A stretch of 64,000 bases of DNA from Salegentibacter agarivorans (GTDB lineage Bacteria; Bacteroidota; Bacteroidia; Flavobacteriales; Flavobacteriaceae), in NCBI RefSeq assembly GCF_900113135.1, contig NZ_FOOH01000006.1:62001-126000 (forward strand), written 5' to 3'. The translations under genes and the position numbers were made by a program. Below, in pieces: positions 41,966-52,168 of this stretch. The notes beneath the pieces are model-generated. The model was not told the DNA's origin, did no database searches, and saw only the letters and a program-made list of their open reading frames with translations. How positions within the stretch are numbered: the stretch's first letter is position 1; each line of letters begins with the position of its first letter.

Positions 41966-42077
41966 AGTATCTACTCTTTAAATATTAACAATTTCGGGGA
42001 ATTCGTTATTTTTGAGACTTGCACTTGTGGGAGTTGAAATTTCTCCTGTTTTTTGCCACTTAAATTTTTCAATTGTT

Positions 42078-43310
42078 ATGACCAATCAAGATCTTCTCGC
42101 TGTAGCCAAAGAATTTGGAAGCCCTGTTTACGTTTATGATGCCGAAAAAATTGCTTTTCAGTTTAACCGACTTAAAAATGCGTTTTCTGAAATTAAAGAT
42201 TTACGTATTCATTATGCGGTAAAAGCGCTTTCTAATATTTCTATCCTGAAATATTTAAATTCCTTAGGAAGTGGTATGGACACAGTGTCGGTACAGGAAG
42301 TGAAGCTTGCTTTGAAAGCCGGGGTTGCTCCAAAAGATATTATTTATACGCCAAACGGAGTTTCTTTAGAAGAAATTGAACAGGTGGTACGATTGGGAGT
42401 GCAAATTAATATAGACAATCTATCTATCCTTGAACAGTTTGGAGCCAAACATCCAGAAGTACCGGTTTGTATTCGTATAAATCCGCATATTTTGGCCGGC
42501 GGAAATTCTAAAATTTCAGTAGGCCACGTAGATTCTAAATTCGGAATTTCTATTCACCAAATGCCACTTTTGCTGCGTATTGTTGAAAATACCGGGATGA
42601 ATATTAACGGGATTCATATGCACACCGGTAGTGATATTCTTGATATTGAAGTTTTCTTACGCGCTTCAGAAATTCTTTTTGATTCGGCTAAAAACTTTAA
42701 AAACCTTGAATTTCTTGATTTTGGGAGCGGATTTAAAGTGCCTTACCGTGAAAATGATATTGAAACCGATATTGAAGAGTTAGGTGAAAAACTAACCGAA
42801 CGTTTTAAGAATTTCTGCAAAGAATACGGGCGCGAACTTACTTTAGTTTTTGAACCAGGAAAATTTTTAGTGAGTGAGGCCGGGAAATTCCTTGCTAAAG
42901 TGAACGTGATAAAGCAAACCACTTCTACGGTTTTCGCCGGGGTAGACACCGGATTTAATCATTTAATTCGCCCAATGTTTTACGGGTCTCATCACGATAT
43001 TAAAAATGTATCTAACCCCGAAGGTAAATTCAGGTTTTACTCGGTGGTAGGCTATATTTGCGAAACCGATACTTTTGCCAATAACCGCCGAATTGCTGAA
43101 ATTACCGAAGGAGATATCCTGGCTTTTAGCAATGCCGGGGCCTACTCATTTTCAATGGCCAGTAATTTTAATTCACGTTACCGCCCGCCAGAAGTTTTAT
43201 GGTATAAAGGTAAAGGCCATTTAATAAGGGAGCGCGAAACTTTTGAGGATTTGCTAAGGCATCAAAAAGTTATGGATTTCACCCCGAAAACTGCAAAAGC
43301 TTCTAAATAA
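42078..43310 (+). CDS. lysA: Diaminopimelate decarboxylase
   Basis: From the ATG at 42078 (MTNQDLLAVAKEFGSPVYVYD) it has 410 residues. An earlier in-frame TTG at 42012 adds an unlikely 22. Group IV PLP decarboxylase features are present: RIHYAVKALSN (PLP Lys), GMDTVSVQEVKLAL, IHMHTGSDI, FEPGKFLVSEAGKFL and GFNHLIRPMFYGSHH. It converts meso-diaminopimelate to lysine in the cytosol. The catalytic CESGD-type segment reads CETDTFANNR. A small membrane protein gene follows after 3 bp. Confidence 0.93.
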   Translation: MTNQDLLAVAKEFGSPVYVYDAEKIAFQFNRLKNAFSEIKDLRIHYAVKALSNISILKYLNSLGSGMDTVSVQEVKLALKAGVAPKDIIYTPNGVSLEEIEQVVRLGVQINIDNLSILEQFGAKHPEVPVCIRINPHILAGGNSKISVGHVDSKFGISIHQMPLLLRIVENTGMNINGIHMHTGSDILDIEVFLRASEILFDSAKNFKNLEFLDFGSGFKVPYRENDIETDIEELGEKLTERFKNFCKEYGRELTLVFEPGKFLVSEAGKFLAKVNVIKQTTSTVFAGVDTGFNHLIRPMFYGSHHDIKNVSNPEGKFRFYSVVGYICETDTFANNRRIAEITEGDILAFSNAGAYSFSMASNFNSRYRPPEVLWYKGKGHLIRERETFEDLLRHQKVMDFTPKTAKASK

Positions 43311-43313
43311 TTT

Positions 43314-43685
43314 ATGGAAACAGTTTTTAAAAACAAATGGTTTTATAGGCTGCTCATTATTTATATTTTCCTAATACTTATTTGGAATACTTATATGGTT
43401 ATTTCCGGTAATTACCTCGGCTTAATTGCGGTAGTTATAGAATTAACGCTGCTATATTTGCTATTTAACAAACACCGACTTGCAAAAATGGCCATCCACT
43501 TTTGGGCAATTATAATGATGGTTGGCCCCGGGCTTTCAATTATAGGAAAGCTCATAAAAATCGCTACGGGAGATGATTTAAATTTTATGGTAGATAGTCT
43601 TGTACAAAATTTACTATTATTCACTTTTGGTTTATTAATCTATTATTTTAATAAGAAAACGGTTTTTGTAAGAGGAAGAAAATAA
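43314..43685 (+). CDS. Small four-helix membrane protein of unknown function
   Basis: This 123-residue protein has four hydrophobic stretches at about 12-32, 36-52, 60-80 and 92-112, connected by short basic loops, ending NKKTVFVRGRK. No family is recognised. It starts 3 bp after lysA and ends 27 bp before thpR, so it is probably part of the same transcript. Confidence 0.7.
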   Translation: METVFKNKWFYRLLIIYIFLILIWNTYMVISGNYLGLIAVVIELTLLYLLFNKHRLAKMAIHFWAIIMMVGPGLSIIGKLIKIATGDDLNFMVDSLVQNLLLFTFGLLIYYFNKKTVFVRGRK

Positions 43686-43712
43686 AATTAACTCTCGAAA
43701 ATTCAATCTGAA

Positions 43713-44249
43713 ATGCCTTTATATTTTCTCGCTATAATTCCCCCGAAAGAAATTTGTAAGCGAGTAAAATCTCTAAAGCAGGAAATTGCTGAAAAATATA
43801 AAGCTAAACATGCGTTGAAACTGCCCGCGCATATTACCCTTCAAATTCCATTTCAGCTTTCTGAATCAGAAGAAAATATACTTATTGGTTTCCTGGAAAT
43901 TTTTGCTGAGAATCAAAAAAGCTTACGGGTAGATTTAAAAGATTTTGGCAGGTTTAACCAAAAAGTGATTTTTATAAATATTGAAGATCACGAGCCAATA
44001 AAAATTCTTCACACCGAATTACAAAAAGTAATCGCAGCAAATTTGCAGTTAAAGAAACACGAGAAATTTTCTAAAATTCATCCGCATATTACGCTTGCCT
44101 CTCGAGATCTTCATTACAAACAATTTCCTGATGCCTGGGCAGATTTTAAAAAACGTGAGTTTCAGGCTTCCTTTATCGCGAAATCATTTACACTGCTAAA
44201 ACACGATGGAAAACAGTGGCATCGCCATTGTGAATTTAAATTGGAATAA
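43713..44249 (+). CDS. thpR: RNA 2',3'-cyclic phosphodiesterase (2'-5' RNA ligase family)
   Basis: The 178-residue 2H phosphoesterase has two HxT catalytic motifs: LPAHITLQIPF (about residue 45) and IHPHITLASRD (about residue 130). ThpR hydrolyses cyclic 2',3'-phosphates on RNA and can ligate 2'-5' ends in vitro. The length is normal. It is likely the last gene of the lysA transcript. Confidence 0.9.
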   Translation: MPLYFLAIIPPKEICKRVKSLKQEIAEKYKAKHALKLPAHITLQIPFQLSESEENILIGFLEIFAENQKSLRVDLKDFGRFNQKVIFINIEDHEPIKILHTELQKVIAANLQLKKHEKFSKIHPHITLASRDLHYKQFPDAWADFKKREFQASFIAKSFTLLKHDGKQWHRHCEFKLE

Positions 44250-44324
44250 ACCCTATAATCCAAAGCTTTTTAAGGTTTACTGTAACATTTTAATATTTTC
44301 ATCTACTTATCACTAAAGGCAGGT

Positions 44325-44465
44325 ATGGAAAATAATAAAACTAACAGAAAACATAATTATACTTTCTTAGAAATCCTGGGAATAATAGCTCTCATAATTA
44401 TTGCAATCTACTTCCTGGATTTCACCATAGAAGCGGCTTTAGAAGGCTGGAATAACCCGGTTTAA
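44325..44465 (+). CDS. Very small membrane protein A (46 residues)
   Basis: ATG to TAA gives 46 residues: a basic N-terminus (MENNKTNRKHNYTF), one transmembrane segment (LEILGIIALIIIAIYFL) and an acidic, aromatic tail (DFTIEAALEGWNNPV). The pattern LGII-hydrophobic-FLD-xx-EAALE is repeated in the 34-residue protein encoded at 44749-44853. An AGGCAGGT stretch just before the start might aid initiation. No family is known to me. Confidence 0.6.
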   Translation: MENNKTNRKHNYTFLEILGIIALIIIAIYFLDFTIEAALEGWNNPV

Positions 44466-44748
44466 CAAATATTCCTTAATCTTTTTTTCATTTTATCTAC
44501 ATCAAAAAAGCTATTTAATCTAATCTTACATTACCACTAATTTTTTAACCAAAAACCATATAAAATCCTCCGGAAAAAATATAAATTTGGCAAAAAGCTT
44601 AGAATTTCCTTATATTTACCGCTAGTTTTACAAAAATCGAGTTATTTAAAACCGATTTTTCGAAAGATATTGCTTCCTCAATTCATAAGAATTTCTTCAG
44701 GAAAGCATCACTAAAAAATATCTATCGAAATACTAAAAAACCTTAATC
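44466..44748. other. Gap between two small membrane protein genes
   Basis: This 283-bp AT-rich gap has no protein gene. It holds a plausible promoter (44587-44618) and a weak inverted repeat AAAATCGAGTTATTTAAAACCGATTTT near 44633-44660. Confidence 0.4.
44587..44618 (+). promoter_or_regulatory. Possible promoter upstream of the small membrane protein at 44749
   Basis: TTG (44587-44589), a 21-base spacer and TATATTTA (44611-44618) come close to the Bacteroidetes consensus, about 130 bp before the ATG. Confidence 0.35.
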
Positions 44749-44853
44749 ATGAAAGATCGAATCAATATTTTAAAATTAGTAGGAATTATTTTCACTGCGT
44801 TTATGCTGGTTGTATTTTTAGACCAGGCTTTAGAAGTTATTGTTCTTGGTTAA
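44749..44853 (+). CDS. Very small membrane protein B (34 residues)
   Basis: ATG to TAA gives 34 residues: MKDRINILKLVG, then a transmembrane segment (IIFTAFMLVVFL) and DQALEVIVLG. It aligns by eye with the 46-residue protein at 44325 through the LxLxGII...FLDxxxE core. Conservation of the pattern in two close copies is the main reason to believe both are expressed. Function is unknown. Confidence 0.55.
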   Translation: MKDRINILKLVGIIFTAFMLVVFLDQALEVIVLG

Positions 44854-44873
44854 GCTCCTTAAAATTTTTCCCT

Positions 44874-45050
44874 GTGAATACAGCTAGATTAGTCGGCCTT
44901 TTTCTTATACTCGTAGGGCTCTTTTGGAGCTCCTACTTTGCATTTTATAATTTAAATTTCTTTGCCGGCGCTTTAACCGGTCTAGGAGTTCCGTTTCTAC
45001 TCACGGGAAAATTCAAGTTTTGGAAGTGGAAATTTCCCGAGTCTAAATAA
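44874..45050 (+). CDS. Small membrane protein of 58 residues
   Basis: A GTG start 20 bp after the preceding stop gives 58 residues with two hydrophobic helices (LVGLFLILVGLFW and the FAGALTGLGVPFLL region) and a basic aromatic tail (TGKFKFWKWKFPESK). No family is recognised. It shows no sequence similarity to the two smaller neighbours that I can see, but it shares their size class and membrane character. Confidence 0.5.
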   Translation: MNTARLVGLFLILVGLFWSSYFAFYNLNFFAGALTGLGVPFLLTGKFKFWKWKFPESK

Positions 45051-45190
45051 TAGGAATTACTTTAATAGAATATACCTCTTTCTGTACCGCTGCGATTAAA
45101 GCAAACTATCGCGGCAGATTCAATGCCCTATTTTTATTTGAATTTTTAATCGATATTTTCACTAAATTAATTTCCAAAACCTAATAAATC

Positions 45191-46198
45191 ATGCGGTTAA
45201 CCTCTCTCCTTTTGGCGCTTGCATTAGGCCTATTTTCTGGTACGGCTCAGGAATCCTCTTTTTCTTTAACCGGTAAAACAAATGATATAAAAGATGGCAG
45301 CTGGCTTTATTTTCGGGATTTGGTAAATGGAGCTACGTTGGATTCCGCAAAAGTTCAAAATAATAGCTTTAAATTCGAAACTAAACTTTCCGAACCCAGA
45401 ATGTGGGTAATGCTGCATACTAAAGATCGTTCTAAATTCAAAGAATTATGGTTGCAGGACAAACCTATGCGTTTTGATGCAAGCAATACCGATTTCCAGG
45501 ATGCCGAAGTTACCGGCTCTATTTCTCAGGAATTAGTTGACGAAATAAAAACAGTTTATGAAGATTATGATAAAATTAGTGAAGCCGAACTTAGAAAACG
45601 CCAGGAAGAATTTATAAAAAACAATCCCAACGCCTTGATTAGTGCCCGGATGCTTTATGAAGTCTCAGGAAAATGGGGACAGGAAACTACGGCTCATTAT
45701 TTTGATCTTTTTCCTGAAGAAATTCAGGAAAGCGCTTTGGGAAAGCGAATCCTTAGTATTTTAAATAATGACAACATCCCCCAACCTGGCGAAAAATATG
45801 TAGATTTTGAATTACCTACACCCACTGGGGAAACACGAAAATTTTCAGCTTTAACAGGTAAAGTAACCCTTTTACAATTTTGGGCTTCTACCTGCGAACC
45901 CAGTAAAATGCAAAACCGCGAGCTAAAAAAATTATATCGAAAATATAAGTCAGACGGACTCGAAATTGTAGCGGTTTCCCGTGATACTTCACAAACCGAT
46001 TGGATTAAATCTATAGAAAAAGACAATTTAAAATGGCAACACCTTAGCGCTTTGGAAGGCTGGGAAGGTCCGGTTTTTACCAACTACGGAATAAAGCGCA
46101 CCCCTTCCAATTATCTTATAAATACCAACGGTCGCGTGGTCGGTGTCAATTTAAGAGATAAGGAGTTAAAAGAAAACATTAAAAAATTATTGAAATAA
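45191..46198 (+). CDS. TlpA-like thioredoxin-fold protein with DUF4369-type N-terminus, lacking CXXC
   Basis: This 335-residue exported protein (signal MRLTSLLLALALGLFSGTAQ) has an N-terminal beta-rich region (about 25-110) like the DUF4369 domain of Bacteroidetes TlpA proteins, a helical linker, and a thioredoxin fold from about 200. The active site normally reads WCxPC; here it is FWASTCEPSK, so the second cysteine is Ser. It cannot form the usual intramolecular disulfide, though a one-cysteine role is possible. The substrate is unknown. It appears to be monocistronic. Confidence 0.85.
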   Translation: MRLTSLLLALALGLFSGTAQESSFSLTGKTNDIKDGSWLYFRDLVNGATLDSAKVQNNSFKFETKLSEPRMWVMLHTKDRSKFKELWLQDKPMRFDASNTDFQDAEVTGSISQELVDEIKTVYEDYDKISEAELRKRQEEFIKNNPNALISARMLYEVSGKWGQETTAHYFDLFPEEIQESALGKRILSILNNDNIPQPGEKYVDFELPTPTGETRKFSALTGKVTLLQFWASTCEPSKMQNRELKKLYRKYKSDGLEIVAVSRDTSQTDWIKSIEKDNLKWQHLSALEGWEGPVFTNYGIKRTPSNYLINTNGRVVGVNLRDKELKENIKKLLK

Positions 46199-46356
46199 TG
46201 AGGTTTTTTTATTAATTTCATTAAAATTACCCCCTAATTTTTCCGCAACTTAACCATAATTTATTTGAATTTCCTTTTATCTAATTTCAAAGTGCCTCTT
46301 AATAGGCATTGATCTTGATATTAGCACTATTCAAATATTATTTTAAACGTTAAGTT

Positions 46357-46749
46357 GTGACCATATATTATCCACAAAAAAGACTGAAGTATAAACTGCT
46401 TTACGGCATCGTATCGGTAATTATTGGTACTATCGCTTTTATAATCGATTCAGCACCTATTTTTATATATCCCTGGTTAATCCTGGGCTTTTTAGAAATT
46501 GGTACTTGGTACTACGAAAACAAATATCACTACCTCCAAATAAATAATAATATCCTTACTAAAAATTCACTCTTTCCTAAGAGTATAGATCTCACCAAAC
46601 TTAGCGCAATTAGAAAATATAAAAATAGTTTTATACTGGAATCGGAAGATCAAAATATTAAAATTCATAAAGGTTTGATCGCTTCCCATTCCCTTAATCA
46701 GCTTAACAATCTTTTAAATGAAATTCCGCTAAAGCCTCAGCAAATTTGA
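46357..46749 (+). CDS. Membrane protein with PH-like C-terminus, unknown function
   Basis: From a GTG start it has 130 residues: two close transmembrane segments (LLYGIVSVIIGTIAFII and APIFIYPWLILGFLEIG) then a small beta-rich part (YLQINNNILTKNSLF, LTKLSAIRKYKNSFILES), as in bacterial PH-like or YcxB-type membrane proteins. I do not recognise a specific family. It ends 52 bp before the next gene on the same strand. Confidence 0.65.
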   Translation: MTIYYPQKRLKYKLLYGIVSVIIGTIAFIIDSAPIFIYPWLILGFLEIGTWYYENKYHYLQINNNILTKNSLFPKSIDLTKLSAIRKYKNSFILESEDQNIKIHKGLIASHSLNQLNNLLNEIPLKPQQI

Positions 46750-46801
46750 ATGCTTATCCTCGTTTTTATTGCTATTTTTAAATCGCAATAAATTATAGAA
46801 A

Positions 46802-48079
46802 ATGAAAAAGCTGCTTTGGCTGGTTTTAATACTTCTTATTGGTTTTATAGGACTTATTTATTTTTCGGTTTTAGGTACCGATAAGGAATTTGAAACCGCA
46901 ACAATAGAAGATTTTAAAGATATTGAAGATATAGATTTCCGTGCGCACGACTCCGTTACAGTCGCTGCAAGCAGTTTATATAAAATCAATCCGCTTAAAA
47001 ATATTATGCAGGGAGAAAATTACCGCGAAGCCTGGGCCACTCCCGTAAAAGTTCCTGTACTTTTTCTCGATACACTTTACGGCGGAATGAAAATCGTAAA
47101 AGAAGGTGGTGGTACCCAAACCCATTCCCTTCGTTTAAAGGATAATGAGGGTTTTCTTTATTCCCTGCGCAGTGTAAATAAAGATCCATCTACCCACGTT
47201 CCCCAGTTTGCCCGAAGCCTTGGGTTGGAAAATATTGTGATAGATGCAATTTCGGCCTCGCACCCATACGGCGCAATTCTCGCCGCTGCACTTTCAGAAA
47301 AAGCTAATGTTTTACACACCCATCCCAAAGTGGTTTTTGTTCCAAAACAGGATTTTCTAGGCGAAAAATATAACGAGAAATACGGCAATAGATTGTTCCT
47401 TTTAGAATATGAAACCGAAGGAGAAAAGAACTGGACCGGTTATAAAAATGTAGCTGAAATTCTTGACACCAAGAACATGCAGGAATTAAAAAATGAACAT
47501 CCTGAAAAAGTTTCGATAGATAGAAATGCATTGGTGAGGGCTCGATTATTTGATATGCTTATTGGCGATTGGGACAGGCACGCCAAGCAGTGGGGCTGGG
47601 TAATTCAGGAAGAAAATAATTCTTTTAAAGCCTTTCCCGTGGCCGGTGACAGGGATAATGCTTTTTTCAATTTAGAGGGCGTTATTCCCGGAATAATTTC
47701 GAATGAGAATATTGAACCGGAAGTTCGGCCATTTGAAAAGGAAATAGATTATATGCCGGGATTGGTTTATCCTAACGATGTTTATTTCCTTACTGATACT
47801 CCTGAAGAAATCTTTACCTCGGAAGCAAAAAAATTACAGGAATTAATGACTGATAAAGCTATTGCCGATGCTTTTAAAATTTGGCCCAGGGAAATCTACG
47901 AATTAGACGGAAAAGAGATTGCTGAAAAGATTAAATCCCGCCGTGAAAATTTAGTAGCATACGCCAAAGAATTCCACCGAATAATCGCTGAAAAAGAATT
48001 ACTGAACAAACCCCTTAAAGGTTCTGAAGATGCAAAAATAAGCCCGGCTTTAATTAAATGTTTTGAATGTAAAAATTAA
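46802..48079 (+). CDS. Membrane-anchored atypical kinase-like protein
   Basis: The protein has 425 residues: an N-terminal membrane anchor (LLWLVLILLIGFIGLIYFSV), then a long exported domain. It has a glycine-rich loop-like segment (EGGGTQTHSLRL, about 101-112), YSLRSVNKDP, a possible catalytic loop LIGDWDRHAKQWGW (about 252-265) and a metal-site-like VAGDRDNAFF (about 280-289). The order resembles HipA/Fam20/CotH-type atypical kinases. I recall a similar block inside large Bacteroidetes surface proteins with phosphatase and beta-barrel parts, but here it stands alone. Kinase activity is inference. Confidence 0.6.
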   Translation: MKKLLWLVLILLIGFIGLIYFSVLGTDKEFETATIEDFKDIEDIDFRAHDSVTVAASSLYKINPLKNIMQGENYREAWATPVKVPVLFLDTLYGGMKIVKEGGGTQTHSLRLKDNEGFLYSLRSVNKDPSTHVPQFARSLGLENIVIDAISASHPYGAILAAALSEKANVLHTHPKVVFVPKQDFLGEKYNEKYGNRLFLLEYETEGEKNWTGYKNVAEILDTKNMQELKNEHPEKVSIDRNALVRARLFDMLIGDWDRHAKQWGWVIQEENNSFKAFPVAGDRDNAFFNLEGVIPGIISNENIEPEVRPFEKEIDYMPGLVYPNDVYFLTDTPEEIFTSEAKKLQELMTDKAIADAFKIWPREIYELDGKEIAEKIKSRRENLVAYAKEFHRIIAEKELLNKPLKGSEDAKISPALIKCFECKN

Positions 48080-48580
48080 GTGGGCAGTTGGCAGCTTTCA
48101 GTTTATTGTTTGGAGTTTTGAGTTTCCGTCTTTGTGAGAACTGCGATTGCAGGACACGGTAATCTGTACTTGATTTATTGTTTCCGAGTTATTGTTACGC
48201 CACGAATCCACTAATAATTCTTCACTGGGCTCGGTTGTCAGTTCCCGGTTGAACCGGTTGCGGGTTTGAAAGTTTGGTGTTTATGGTTTGTAGTTGTTGC
48301 GAGTTTTGGGATATTTCAGAGTCTTTGGTCTTGCTTCTTTTATCCCGACTCTTTTCTCTTATTCCGTCCGGTCGTCAGTTCGAATGGCGATATTTGAGCA
48401 AAAGCGAAAATAACGCTGTATCGAGAACTCATAGAAGTTCTGCTCTTCTCGATACTTCCTCCTACCGTCTCGAAGGGACGGAAGGAAACCCAATCAAAAG
48501 ATCGCCGGCTTCGTTTCTTGCCCGCATTGACGAAGTAATAGCACCTGCCAACTCAGAACCGAGAACCGAGAACCGAGAAC
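48080..48580. repeat. 501-bp repeat-filled intergenic region
   Basis: I see no believable gene; an open frame at 48274-48588 runs through repeats. Contents: GGCAGTTGGCAGCTTTCAG-type units (48085-48105), one REP arm with GAGAACTGCGATTGCAGGAC (48127-48166), a hairpin GGTTGAACCGGTTGCGGG near 48251, a perfect 10-bp inverted repeat GTATCGAGAA / TTCTCGATAC (48418-48455) next to GTCGTCAGTTCGAATGGCG, and three tandem copies of the heptamer ACCGAGA (48555-48580). Confidence 0.75.
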
Positions 48581-49342
48581 TTAATTAATAATAATATTCG
48601 TTTTATCTACACCGGTATTGCCTGTCACGGGATCAAAAGCGTAGATCGTGATGGTATAGTAGCCTTTTTCTAAATTTGTATTTGCAGTAAAGGTACTGGG
48701 TTTATTGGTTGGGTTTAAGCTGACTTCTTTAATTTCACTTCCTTCTGAAGTTATGATCGCTTTTACTTCATATTGATTGGCATCCCACACACCATCTTCG
48801 GTAACGGGGCAACCACACATCATAATAATGTTGGCTTTTAGATTAATTCCATTAGAAGCTTTAATGCGTTCGTGAGTTTGTGGCGATAATATATCTACCA
48901 CAAATCCCGGGATTTCCAGTACTACCCCCTCACCGGTAATATCTTTCCCAGGAATAACCCATAGTTGGGTGCTAGAAATTACTTTGGCCTGTTTTTTATT
49001 AACCGGTGCGTGGGCCTCTACATCTACGAACGTAGGTTCTTTTATATTTAATTTAGCTTCAAATCCCGCTGTAGTTTCATCGGTGAGTTTATCGTAGCGC
49101 TTTTTGGGAGTTTGCAAAATTAATTTGGTGTTTCCTGTACTCCCTGAGGTTAAACCCTGGTCCAGGATTTCTCGCGTTTCAGCATTTCTAAGAATAATTT
49201 TAGCGCCGCCAATAGAACTTCCTATAAATTTCGCATCTTTTGCCAGTGCCCTAACCATAACCGTAGTTTCCTGGGCCACCAGGCTTCCGAAGCAAAATAA
49301 AAATGCACAAAATAAAACTGGAATCGAAAATCTTAATTTCAT
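48581..49342 (-). CDS. Secreted protein of unknown function
   Basis: I use the ATG at 49342 (MKLRFSIPVLFCAFLFCFGSLVAQ, a clear signal peptide), giving 253 residues; a TTG nine codons upstream is less likely. The mature part looks like two or three beta-sandwich units: TTVMVRALAKDAKFIGSSIGGAKIIL in the first, and a C-terminal unit ending YTITIYAFDPVTGNTGVDKTNIII. The latter resembles Ig- or CARDB-like folds. A Cys pair with MMCGCPVTEDGVWD lies near 185. No family is recognised. It lies 40 bp downstream of the L,D-transpeptidase gene on the same strand. Confidence 0.72.
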   Translation of the reverse strand: MKLRFSIPVLFCAFLFCFGSLVAQETTVMVRALAKDAKFIGSSIGGAKIILRNAETREILDQGLTSGSTGNTKLILQTPKKRYDKLTDETTAGFEAKLNIKEPTFVDVEAHAPVNKKQAKVISSTQLWVIPGKDITGEGVVLEIPGFVVDILSPQTHERIKASNGINLKANIIMMCGCPVTEDGVWDANQYEVKAIITSEGSEIKEVSLNPTNKPSTFTANTNLEKGYYTITIYAFDPVTGNTGVDKTNIIIN

Positions 49343-49382
49343 AAAAACGAATTTCTGACTAAAATACAAAATCTAAAAGCAT

Positions 49383-50318
49383 CTAAAGCACAATATCCTG
49401 GTCGCTTAAGTCTTCAAATTTAAAGTTTAAAGGATCGTTTTTATAACGCTGGGCATAAACTTTTAGCGTATCTATCTCAGCCTTGTTTAAGTCATTACTT
49501 CGCCCGTTTTCTGCAAGTTTAAACCAGGGTTGAATATCATTATAATCATATTCACCTATCACCATAAATGGGGTTCCATTTTGTACAATCACATCACTTT
49601 TTAATTCCCACATATTGGCCCAATCGTAAATCATTTTTGCATCTTCCCGGTACATCCTAACGCAGCCGTGGCTGGCAGGATATCCCGGGAGCGTATATTC
49701 GTGTGTCCCAATTCCTTCAAAATTCATAAAATTAAAATAATAAGGCATAATCCAGGATTGGTCTATGGTACTTATTTTTCGCTTGGCTTTATAATTGCCG
49801 TAGTATAAACCCGAAGGTGTGCCTGTGCTTTGCTTCCCGGTACTCACCGGACCCCAATGCAATAAATTCCCATTTTCGTAAAGTGCAAAAGCCTGGATTC
49901 GTTTTGAAATTATCACGGTTTTTTCTATTGAATCTAATGGCTTCATTAGTTTCGGAAAAGGTGCATAGACATTCAAATCCTTTACCAAAGAATCGGGAAT
50001 TATTAGTTTGGCACCGGGTTTAACGCGATAAGCGTCAATTCGGTTTAGCGTATAGACCAACTTTACATCTTCTTCAGAAAAATCATTAAAAAGACTATCC
50101 AAATGTTCTTTATTCTGAATAGAATCTAACCGGTAAGTAGTTTTAAAAACCGGTGGTTCCATTGAAATAGTATCTAATTGCGTTGGTGGAACTTCTTTCT
50201 TGGGTTCTTGTGCATTATTATTACAGGCAGTAAAAATTAAAAGAATAATCCCAGAAAAAAGCAGGATTAATTTTGTGTATTGTTGTTTCAAAATTGGCAG
50301 ATTTAGGTTGTGCGTCAC
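49383..50318 (-). CDS. L,D-transpeptidase lipoprotein (YkuD)
   Basis: The protein has 311 residues from a GTG; a TTG nine codons on (50291) is also possible and gives a tighter signal. The lipobox is LLIFTACNNN. The YkuD domain starts near residue 130 and has the catalytic site YPASHGCVRMYREDA (His and Cys, about 222-227). These periplasmic enzymes form 3-3 peptidoglycan cross-links or attach proteins to the wall. A possible LysM-like part (VYTLNRIDAYRVKPGAKLII) lies before it. The second gene of this unit is the secreted protein at 48581. Confidence 0.9.
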   Translation of the reverse strand: MTHNLNLPILKQQYTKLILLFSGIILLIFTACNNNAQEPKKEVPPTQLDTISMEPPVFKTTYRLDSIQNKEHLDSLFNDFSEEDVKLVYTLNRIDAYRVKPGAKLIIPDSLVKDLNVYAPFPKLMKPLDSIEKTVIISKRIQAFALYENGNLLHWGPVSTGKQSTGTPSGLYYGNYKAKRKISTIDQSWIMPYYFNFMNFEGIGTHEYTLPGYPASHGCVRMYREDAKMIYDWANMWELKSDVIVQNGTPFMVIGEYDYNDIQPWFKLAENGRSNDLNKAEIDTLKVYAQRYKNDPLNFKFEDLSDQDIVL

Positions 50319-50727
50319 GGAAATAAAACATTCCTATACGATTACGAAATTAGATCGCTAATCTTTTTTCAGCTGCCAAGGAAGCGTTAATAATTTGTTG
50401 GGAGATTGGTAAAAGTTGTTCAGTTTTCGGTTGTGAGTGGTCAGTTGTGAGTTATCGGTTTTGAGTTTTCAAAAAATATCCTGATTTCTGAAACTTTATT
50501 ATTTTCTCTCTTCTCTTACCTTTAACTTTTCGCTTAACTTTTAAACACAAAGCACTTTTCGATACTTCCGACTCTCGTCGGAAACTCAAAGTGACTAGGA
50601 ATTGTAACTACAGATCGCCACGCTCGTTCCGAACTCGCGATGACGAATACAAGAATTGCTTAAAAACCGAGAACTCAAGAACCCTAACCACTGCCCACTG
50701 AGACTGCTTACTGAAAACTGAAAAGAA
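50319..50727. repeat. 409-bp repeat-filled intergenic region
   Basis: No gene is seen. Contents: GTTCAGTTTTCGGTTGTGAG-type low-complexity units (50417-50470), CTTTTCGATACTTCCGACTC (50551-50570), a REP arm AGATCGCCACGCTCG...CTCGCGATGACG (50612-50646), and CCACTGCCCACTGAGACTGC-type units (50688-50725). Confidence 0.7.
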
Positions 50728-51489
50728 CTAACGAATAAAAACCGGTTCGTTCTCTTTCTCCGTATGTTCTTCACTAAAACGGTAATCCATATAATCAAAA
50801 CTTTTTAGCTCTTCCATGGTATTTACGTCTTTATCGATAATATAACGTACCATTGCCCCGCGCGCTTTTTTTGCGAAGAAACTGATGATCTTTAATTTTC
50901 CGTTCTTGAAATCTTTAAATACAGGTGAGATCACCTCAGCTTTTAGTTTTTTAGTGTCAACAGCTTTAAAATACTCGTTGCTGGCCAGGTTGATAAAAAG
51001 TTCGCCTTCCTTCATTTCATCATTCAGGAGTTTAGTAACTTTTGATTGCCAAACTTCATAAAGATTATTCTTACGCTCAATACCTACAGAAGTTCCCATC
51101 TCTAGCCGATAAGGCTGCATAAGATCCAGCGGTTTTAGCACGCCATAAAGTCCCGAAAGGATTCGTAAAATATCCTGAAGGCGGTCCAGTTTATCGGTGG
51201 GGATGGTATAGGCATCCAGGCCGGTGTAAACATCTCCGTTAAACGCATACATCGCCGGGCGGGAATTCTTTTTGTTGTGTTCTTCCTCAAAAGCCTGGTA
51301 GCGGGTATAATTAAGATCGGCCAACTTATCGCTGATTCCCATTAATTTTGAAATCTCATTTTTTGTCATTCTCGCCATCTTGCGATTAAGCTTCACCGTG
51401 GTTTCTAAAAAAGCAGGCTGAGTGCCGCGGGTAGTAGGTAATTTAGATTCGTAATCCAGGCTTTTGGCCGGGGAAACAACAATTTTCAT
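50728..51489 (-). CDS. yaaA: Peroxide stress protein YaaA (UPF0246)
   Basis: This 253-residue protein begins [15 protein letters not shown], diagnostic of YaaA. Other family blocks are [36 protein letters not shown] and [16 protein letters not shown]. In E. coli YaaA limits intracellular iron during peroxide stress and binds DNA. It is cytosolic, of normal length and stands alone. Confidence 0.93.
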
Positions 51490-51634
51490 AGGTAAGTAGT
51501 TTTACTTCAAAGATAAGTGAAAGCATAGCAATTAGGAAAACTGCCTATTATTAGTTTTTTATAGAAAGATAGTTAAGACTTATTGGCGCTGAAAAACGAT
51601 AAATTAATTCGGAAAATCTTTTTCAGCGAGATAC

Positions 51635-52168
51635 TTACTCCAACTCTATTTTATCAATTTCCAGCCTAAAATCTTCTGCTTTTTTATTCCCGATTGAAAA
51701 GCGAATTTCCTGAATACTCTCTGCAGAAAAATTAGGAAGATCAAGTTTTCTACCACGAAAAACCGGTTCCATTTCCTTTAGCGGAACTTCAATTGTTTGC
51801 CATTCTCCCGTGGTTTTGAAGGTGTAGATATAAGAAGCTCTATCCTGTAAATTGGCCTTCATTCTAAATTGATAAGATTTCCCGTCTCCTTTCAGCAAGA
51901 TCAGCGCTTTTTTATAGCCTTTAATATTTTTAGATGGAAAATGATACTGCACCGAAGCAAAACCACCGTTGTTTTCCAACGAAACATGGCCAGTAAAAAT
52001 AGCATTGCCAGACTCACTGCGTTCCAGCCTGGCAGTGGAGTTTCCCCCCATTACTACATCGTTTTCTACTTCCCAGGCACTCCAGTTAGAGGTAACGCTA
52101 AAATCGAAAAGAAGTAATTTACTCATAACCAAGAATATTAATATTAAGAAGAATTGCTGCTGAAACAT
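51635..52168 (-). CDS. CIA30 family protein
   Basis: The protein has 177 residues from the ATG at 52168, with a hydrophobic N-terminus but no clear cleavage site; the ATG at 52126 (MSKLLLFDFS) is an alternative. The domain has LLFDFSVTSNWSAWEVENDV, VMGGNSTARLE and YQFRMKANLQDRASYIYTF, with a final ESIQEIRFSIGNKKAEDFRL. This is the CIA30 / NADH:ubiquinone oxidoreductase intermediate-associated galactose-binding-like fold. The bacterial role is not defined. It diverges from the MutT-helicase-HNH operon. Confidence 0.82.
   Translation of the reverse strand: MFQQQFFLILIFLVMSKLLLFDFSVTSNWSAWEVENDVVMGGNSTARLERSESGNAIFTGHVSLENNGGFASVQYHFPSKNIKGYKKALILLKGDGKSYQFRMKANLQDRASYIYTFKTTGEWQTIEVPLKEMEPVFRGRKLDLPNFSAESIQEIRFSIGNKKAEDFRLEIDKIELE

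Follow-up and report, generated by a model that had tools for sequence, protein, structure and literature searches.

Extracytoplasmic kinases are rare in bacteria. Those of the Fam20 type are extracytoplasmic, a likeness to the location proposed below for the protein that we describe. CotH has an atypical PKL fold, and its D228Q form is described as catalytically inactive (PMC7821199). In the Pycsar literature, PycTM is presented as a transmembrane-domain receptor that cyclic pyrimidines activate and that disrupts membrane integrity in phage defence (PMC11224242). PMC10281475 and PMC9758233 describe other proteins than the family reported here. Nothing was found on its kinase-like domain, on its phosphatase-kinase-barrel architecture or on HD-PycTM in the open-access literature, which, being open access only, is weak evidence.

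We analysed a 64,000-nucleotide stretch of Salegentibacter agarivorans DNA (hereafter the window) and one of its genes, whose product is called the window protein. The gene, its family, its predicted fold, its conserved active-site residues and its larger relatives are established here by computation. Our preferred reading, to which we give a probability of roughly 0.55, is that the window protein would be an inner-membrane-anchored, periplasm-facing kinase of an unnamed atypical PKL family on the PI4K-II/CotH/HipA/Fam20 side.

The open reading frame is a real gene, conserved in the genus and under purifying selection. Orthologues with 71–88% identity occur in 11 of the 14 other genomes of the genus, against which pN/pS is 0.12–0.22, and two further genomes of the family encode orthologues with 56 and 58% identity. 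Neither Pfam nor NCBIfam gave the protein a match above cut-off, the best Pfam match being HipA_C (E 0.023), and phmmer found none among PDB sequences. PADLOC returned a weak match at the catalytic loop (candidate family PDC-M03A, E 1.8e-5). A scan of window positions 42000–52000 with Rfam gave no match.

Table 1 Features of the window gene and its product. Positions are those of the window; A2 is the 75-row alignment described in the text.
Feature	Position	Strand	Basis or remark
Open reading frame, 425 aa, membrane-anchored kinase-like (PKL-fold) protein	46802..48079	+	ATG start
N-terminal transmembrane anchor, residues 2–24	46805..46873	+	Model helix; hydropathy and charges
Glycine-rich loop GGGTQTHSLRL, residues 102–112, on the turn between strands 97–102 and 109–113	47105..47137	+	Alignments, model
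K127, candidate nucleotide-binding lysine, with R123	47180..47182	+	K in 75/75 A2 rows and 84/87 pattern-free rows
D148 in helix 143–152, putative acidic partner of K127	47243..47245	+	75/75 A2 rows; model helix
Catalytic loop GDWDRHAKQWGW, residues 255–266	47564..47599	+	Aligned to DRHNGNW of the solved kinase CtkA and to the CotH-family catalytic region
Metal site GDRDNAFF, residues 282–289; D283 candidate metal-binding Asp	47645..47668	+	Conservation; register with 'WDnn' of CotH-family loci
C-terminal CFEC (CxxC), sole two cysteines of the protein	48059..48070	+	Kept in the stand-alone branch

An AlphaFold2 model, predicted after aligning the window protein to 74 of 80 homologous loci, had a pLDDT of 93.0 and a pTM of 0.92. 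When the PDB was searched with Foldseek, CtkA (E 7.6e-6), HipA (1.4e-4), PI4K-II and HipT led the ranking, with CotH (E 3.0e-3, rank 22) and Golgi casein kinase (E 1.4e-2, rank 36) further down; judged by title, PKL kinases occupied the first 18 Foldseek ranks and the best 50 rows listed for VIA-align. In the VIA-align comparison, PI4K-IIbeta (4wtv; Z 14.4, rmsd 4.5, 262 aligned, 10% identity) and CotH (5jd9; Z 14.2, rmsd 4.3, 255 aligned) were followed by CtkA (Z 13.7, rmsd 4.6, 236 aligned), actin-fragmin kinase (Z 11.7, rmsd 3.8, 222 aligned), HipA (Z 11.3, rmsd 4.3, 214 aligned), hydra Fam20 (Z 10.3, rmsd 5.0, 226 aligned) and Golgi casein kinase (Z 10.2). Rows less than 1 Z apart count as ties, so PI4K-II and CotH are tied and neither is singled out as the closest relative. 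The values of Z 10–14.4 over 203–263 residues, obtained with many solved PKL kinases, indicate a two-lobed PKL kinase fold, in which glycine loop, lysine, catalytic Asp and metal Asp follow one another along the sequence in the PKL order, with roles taken from the CtkA and CotH alignments. The fold search thus agrees with the earlier note, which had read three motifs as standing in the order expected of HipA-, Fam20- and CotH-like folds. Of the two outcomes that the note said would speak against it, an unrelated fold and poorly conserved motif residues, neither was observed.

Profile comparisons provided further evidence for this fold. A profile of the family found the CtkA sequence (E 0.0016) and placed DRHddqW over DRHNGNW; this alignment fits the catalytic loop and is, by our count, one residue off at the metal Asp, and D283 was placed by the CotH alignment. 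An HMM-HMM comparison with 12 CotH-family loci (those below 800 aa of 15 fetched) gave a probability of 62 (P 1e-5), or 39 (3e-4) under other settings, with the catalytic region in register and D283 on the Asp of the 'WDnn' stretch. Against 15 HipA_C loci, the same comparison reached no significance (probability 0.2, two settings); the catalytic loops were nonetheless in register in that low-confidence alignment.

All three motifs named by the earlier note, GGGTQTHSLRL, GDWDRHAKQWGW and GDRDNAFF, were found in the order claimed (Table 1), and their DRH and DN-site residues are kept among homologues. D258 is the candidate catalytic Asp, and Q263 appears to stand where the metal-binding Asn is expected. 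Alignment A1 was made of 24 of the 30 loci from a search without a motif pattern; its rows all have the same GGG, DWDRH, QW and DRD residues, which shows that the motifs did not arise by chance. Alignment A2 contains the window protein and 74 of the 80 loci (L080, L086, L089, L103, L109 and L117 were left out; L079/L080 and L084/L086 are near-copies). G103, G104, S109, R123, K127, D148, E202, R248, D251, D256, R259, H260, W264, D283, R284 and D285 are invariant in its 75 rows, and D258 and Q263 are each kept in 74. The 80 loci (L042–L121, from 581 confirmed stretches) came from a search with patterns containing WDRH and DRD, so the conservation of D258, H260 and D283 among them is partly built in. 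Supporting the conservation, all 43 distinct stand-alone rows, including the 17 that were found without the pattern, keep G104, R123, K127, E202, D256, D258, H260, Q263, D283 and D285. Among 93 distinct pattern-free rows, K127 is kept in 84 of 87, D258 in 79 of 90, H260 in 75 of 90 and D283 in 81 of 90, figures that are no estimate for the family because 20 of the regions were taken mostly for low score or odd length. The wider family does contain degenerate copies, namely the middle copy of L039, L152/L153 (D258S, H260R) and the divergent kinase-barrel proteins L158–L165. As several copies outside the stand-alone branch lack some of the active-site residues, some members are probably pseudokinases.

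Membership in the known families of this fold was rejected or found no sequence match. For HipA_C (PF07804), the window protein scored 14.8 bits against a cut-off of 30.5 and has no HipB-type neighbour, Pfam having given no helix-turn-helix match in the nine open reading frames of 43314–51489. Eight of the 75 homologues match the model at E ≤ 1 (best 0.023), and the five HipA_C matches in the window's genome lie in other genes. HipA, CtkA and HipT have the same fold, with CtkA at Foldseek rank 1 and a DRH-x-x-N/Q-W loop common to CtkA and the window protein, but HipA kinases differ from the latter, which is membrane anchored. Despite CotH being one of the two closest folds, membership in the CotH family (PF08757) was likewise rejected, as the window protein has no Pfam match to it at E ≤ 1; one of the 75 relatives matches weakly (E 0.032). 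The window protein shares with CotH the fold and an in-register alignment of catalytic region and metal Asp, whereas domain partners and location differ. PI4K type II is tied with CotH for the top Z; Pfam matched the window protein to no phosphatidylinositol kinase family. The Fam20 secretory-pathway kinases share the fold at a lower Z than CotH and PI4K-II; no Fam20 match was among the Pfam matches of the window protein at E ≤ 1 or among the matches listed for the 75 relatives (25 of 27 families). In our judgement, the window protein appears to represent a new family of known fold and is most likely an active envelope kinase.

The kinase-like domain had been described, in the earlier note, as a middle domain of larger Bacteroidetes surface proteins. 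It proved to be central in frames of 1,194–1,271 aa, and one further related open frame of 859 aa was present in the genomes searched for homologues. The 80 named loci comprise 25 stand-alone genes (L042–L066) and 55 others. Among the latter, 41 encode a protein of more than 1,150 aa in which the domain is central, 10 a protein of 852–895 aa with the domain near the N terminus, three a protein of 1,016–1,065 aa counted from the first ATG, and one (L094) a protein of 420 aa. The 1,194-aa protein of Ekhidna lutea (L106) was modelled from a 35-row alignment (pLDDT 85.8) and consists of a phosphatase domain, the kinase-like domain, a linker of short strands and 16 long strands by our own count. 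Its phosphatase domain superimposes on pig purple acid phosphatase (7ov2; Z 28.1, rmsd 3.1, 268 aligned) and its barrel on TamA (4n74; Z 25.8, rmsd 2.9, 290 aligned). Consistently, Pfam finds Metallophos (1.5e-8) and Omp85 (3.9e-11) in a large relative; phmmer of the L031 phosphatase domain against PDB sequences gave nothing, and the domain was identified by the fold search instead. Omp85 proteins with N-terminal soluble domains are known from PlpD-like patatin fusions. The larger relatives share the 16-stranded barrel of Omp85 proteins (TamA/BamA) but differ from them in a soluble part made of purple acid phosphatase and kinase-like domain, and the window protein is without a barrel.

A survey of 247 sampled genomes of the phylum, each at least 90% complete, found the family in 92, and in 62 of these the frame reaches 1,150 aa or more; a family that reaches no Pfam or NCBIfam cut-off is thus common in the phylum. 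In a quick tree without bootstraps (160 rows after removal of duplicates, rows below 300 residues and 13 locus prefixes), all stand-alone rows except L094 fell on one side of a branch with an SH-aLRT of 100, indicating, within the limits of such a tree, a single origin for the free form to which the window protein belongs. Two large phosphatase-kinase-barrel proteins are encoded in the window's own genome. In one of these paralogues (L032:2459-6109(+)), the phosphatase motifs seem, by reading, to be degenerate while the kinase motifs are intact; L039:5650-9375(-) shows the opposite pattern. At L059, L043 and L065, a stand-alone kinase gene lies close to a large phosphatase-kinase-barrel gene, of which only the end falls within L065. 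Taken with the predicted fold and the conserved residues, the architecture of the larger relatives suggests an unstudied system of envelope phosphorylation in bacteria. With the kinase domain placed, in its main form, behind a purple acid phosphatase on a TamA/BamA-like barrel, the family probably both phosphorylates and dephosphorylates there.

The model helix and the hydropathy profile agree on the single N-terminal anchor that the earlier note had described: its Kyte-Doolittle peak is 2.71, compared with 1.33 for the next best stretch. Two lysines precede it, and the 15 residues after it carry a net charge of −4. By the positive-inside rule, and by comparison with relatives, these features suggest an N-in, C-out topology with the catalytic domain in the periplasm. 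The stand-alone homologue L065, from a Saprospiraceae MAG, has by reading a lipoprotein-like N terminus instead; it is also the one protein without the C-terminal CxxC, which is present in 25 of the 26 stand-alone proteins examined. The opposite orientation, with the helix N-out and the domain acting as a cytoplasmic kinase on cytoplasmic ATP, would remove the problem of ATP supply discussed below, and no tool result favours it. Given the charges on both sides of the helix, the lack of a second comparably hydrophobic stretch, a CxxC pair as the only cysteines, and homologues that sit behind signal-peptide-like or lipoprotein-like N termini and in many cases on outer-membrane barrels (partly by reading), we regard it as very improbable.

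How, then, might the protein work? In the preferred reading, one helix would tether it to the inner membrane and leave the catalytic domain on the outer side, a nucleotide would be bound by the GGG loop and K127, D258 would be the catalytic Asp, and Q263 and D283/D285 would hold the metal. The substrate would be an envelope component, whether a protein, a glycan or a lipid head group, and the stand-alone form would be a free, inner-membrane version of the kinase present in the outer-membrane relatives. Several points count against a kinase: the periplasm is normally poor in ATP, the metal-binding Asn is replaced by Gln, and a fold alone shows no function. The first two of these, together with the degenerate copies of the wider family, fit a pseudokinase whose periplasmic domain binds a nucleotide, a phospho-ligand or a protein and which serves in signalling or as a scaffold without phosphotransfer, for example by regulating the barrel protein. 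A pure scaffold would have no need of the ten active-site positions that are intact in every stand-alone row, and we consider this explanation unlikely, if still a serious one. Somewhat less likely again is an enzyme of this fold that phosphorylates lipids or small molecules instead of protein or glycan, or that transfers a different group such as AMP. Other PKL enzymes do transfer AMP or act on lipids, and PI4K-II shares the top structural rank with CotH (Z 14.4 and 14.2); nothing specific speaks against such an enzyme, and a Z ranking cannot tell substrates apart. That an artefact or an unrelated fold carries three motifs resembling those of kinases by chance would suit the missing Pfam and NCBIfam matches above cut-off; it is contradicted by the structure, profile and conservation evidence, and we give it almost no weight.

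PycTM (PF18967), the effector fold of Pycsar, is encoded by a gene near 27 of the 55 non-stand-alone loci, mostly behind an N-terminal HD-type domain; at a few of these the gene is split in two frames or encodes PycTM alone. To our knowledge, the domain has been described from phage defence only. PycTM genes adjoin eight of the 25 stand-alone genes and none was found beside those at the other 17 named loci or in the window. The PF18967 E values are 4.4e-34 for L031 in the window's genome and 6.7e-22 (L065) and 2.7e-31 (L049) for genes beside stand-alone ones, and four of six PycTM proteins scanned have a Pfam HD match. In the window's genome (contig C20), the HD-PycTM gene L031:1392-2576(-) is divergent from the purple-acid-phosphatase/kinase/Omp85 gene L031:2631-6350(+). 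Beside the stand-alone gene of L049, the PycTM protein L049:7294-8538(+) seems to have lost the HD residues of its HD part, with no Pfam HD match, and by reading the same holds for its Maribacter relatives. At L059 and L065, a PycTM gene is also close to the stand-alone kinase gene.

Of 60 related genomes, 40 have the large protein together with a PycTM frame of 380 aa or more, and the other 20 have neither; the two lie within 10 kb in 38 of the 40, and in 33 of those 38 the genes are divergent. In the 247 phylum genomes, 61 combine the large protein with a strong PycTM (E ≤ 2.5e-26), one has the large protein only, 18 a strong PycTM only and 167 neither; these cuts for 'long' and 'strong' were set after the tables had been inspected. 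Strong PycTM places lie within 15 kb of a kinase-domain match in 64 of 80 cases, compared with one of 31 for the weaker, mostly short ones. Genomes with the kinase-barrel form only show no clear association (strong PycTM in 14 of 29 versus 65 of 218 others, p 0.06), and the Fisher p-values for the association ignore the relatedness of the genomes. Three genomes of the genus without the stand-alone gene (G005, G007 and G010) also have the PycTM link, which therefore belongs to the large protein; that of the window gene itself is indirect.

In two genomes of one family, the large protein and HD-PycTM stand with a membrane class III cyclase and an SdiA-regulated-type propeller in a co-oriented, nearly touching four-gene run that looks like an operon (L202:1977-8808 (-) and L203:1648-8470 (-)). 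Of the 55 non-stand-alone loci, nine have a cyclase like these nearby and 11 a propeller; at E 1e-6, the surroundings of the 25 stand-alone genes gave neither. The cyclase is not obligatory, because 14 of the 40 genomes with a long PycTM protein have no PF00211 match. The likeness to Pycsar consists of a linked gene with PF18967 and, for part of the relatives, a class III cyclase that belongs to that gene run and scores weakly as PycC, whereas here PycTM is often fused to an HD domain, is linked to envelope genes and occurs without the cyclase in those 14 genomes.

The HD-PycTM membrane protein, to which the family is probably coupled, may read or degrade a cyclic nucleotide. More tentatively, we consider a module for phosphorylation signalling in the Bacteroidota envelope, in which an outer-membrane phosphatase and kinase on a TamA/BamA-like barrel, the inner-membrane HD-PycTM protein and, in some lineages, cyclase and beta-propeller would act together, with the window protein as a free inner-membrane kinase. 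It would amount to a kinase system outside the cytoplasm, wired to cyclic-nucleotide signalling through a membrane domain. The linkage may serve signalling, envelope maintenance or phage defence. Its tightness for the large protein offers a testable entry to a role of PycTM beyond phage defence, and to the question of whether reversible phosphorylation is in use in the bacterial envelope, where a normal supply of ATP is lacking.

The neighbours of the window gene comprise genes for a TlpA-like protein, a small membrane protein and an L,D-transpeptidase, along with one for a 262-aa protein to which Pfam assigns no family above its cut-off. Pfam assigned thioredoxin-like, 2H phosphoesterase, L,D-transpeptidase and YaaA families among the nine open reading frames of 43314–51489 and no family above cut-off to five. 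An operon with the upstream genes was considered and rejected, synteny being confined to the genus: of the 11 genus orthologues, eight have the TlpA-like gene and seven the small membrane gene in their 1.5-kb flanks. Outside the genus, the flanks gave only one weak partial TlpA match (L013), and for this reason we claim no functional link to these genes. Further upstream, 0.9 kb (44325–45050, +) has no open reading frame above 60 aa and holds three tiny hydrophobic ones of 46, 34 and 58 aa; a search of the genome with 44260–45180 matched only itself. The gene at 45191–46198 (+) encodes a thioredoxin-fold protein (DUF4369 and AhpC/TSA) with CEPS as its active-site motif, in which the second cysteine of a CxxC is missing.
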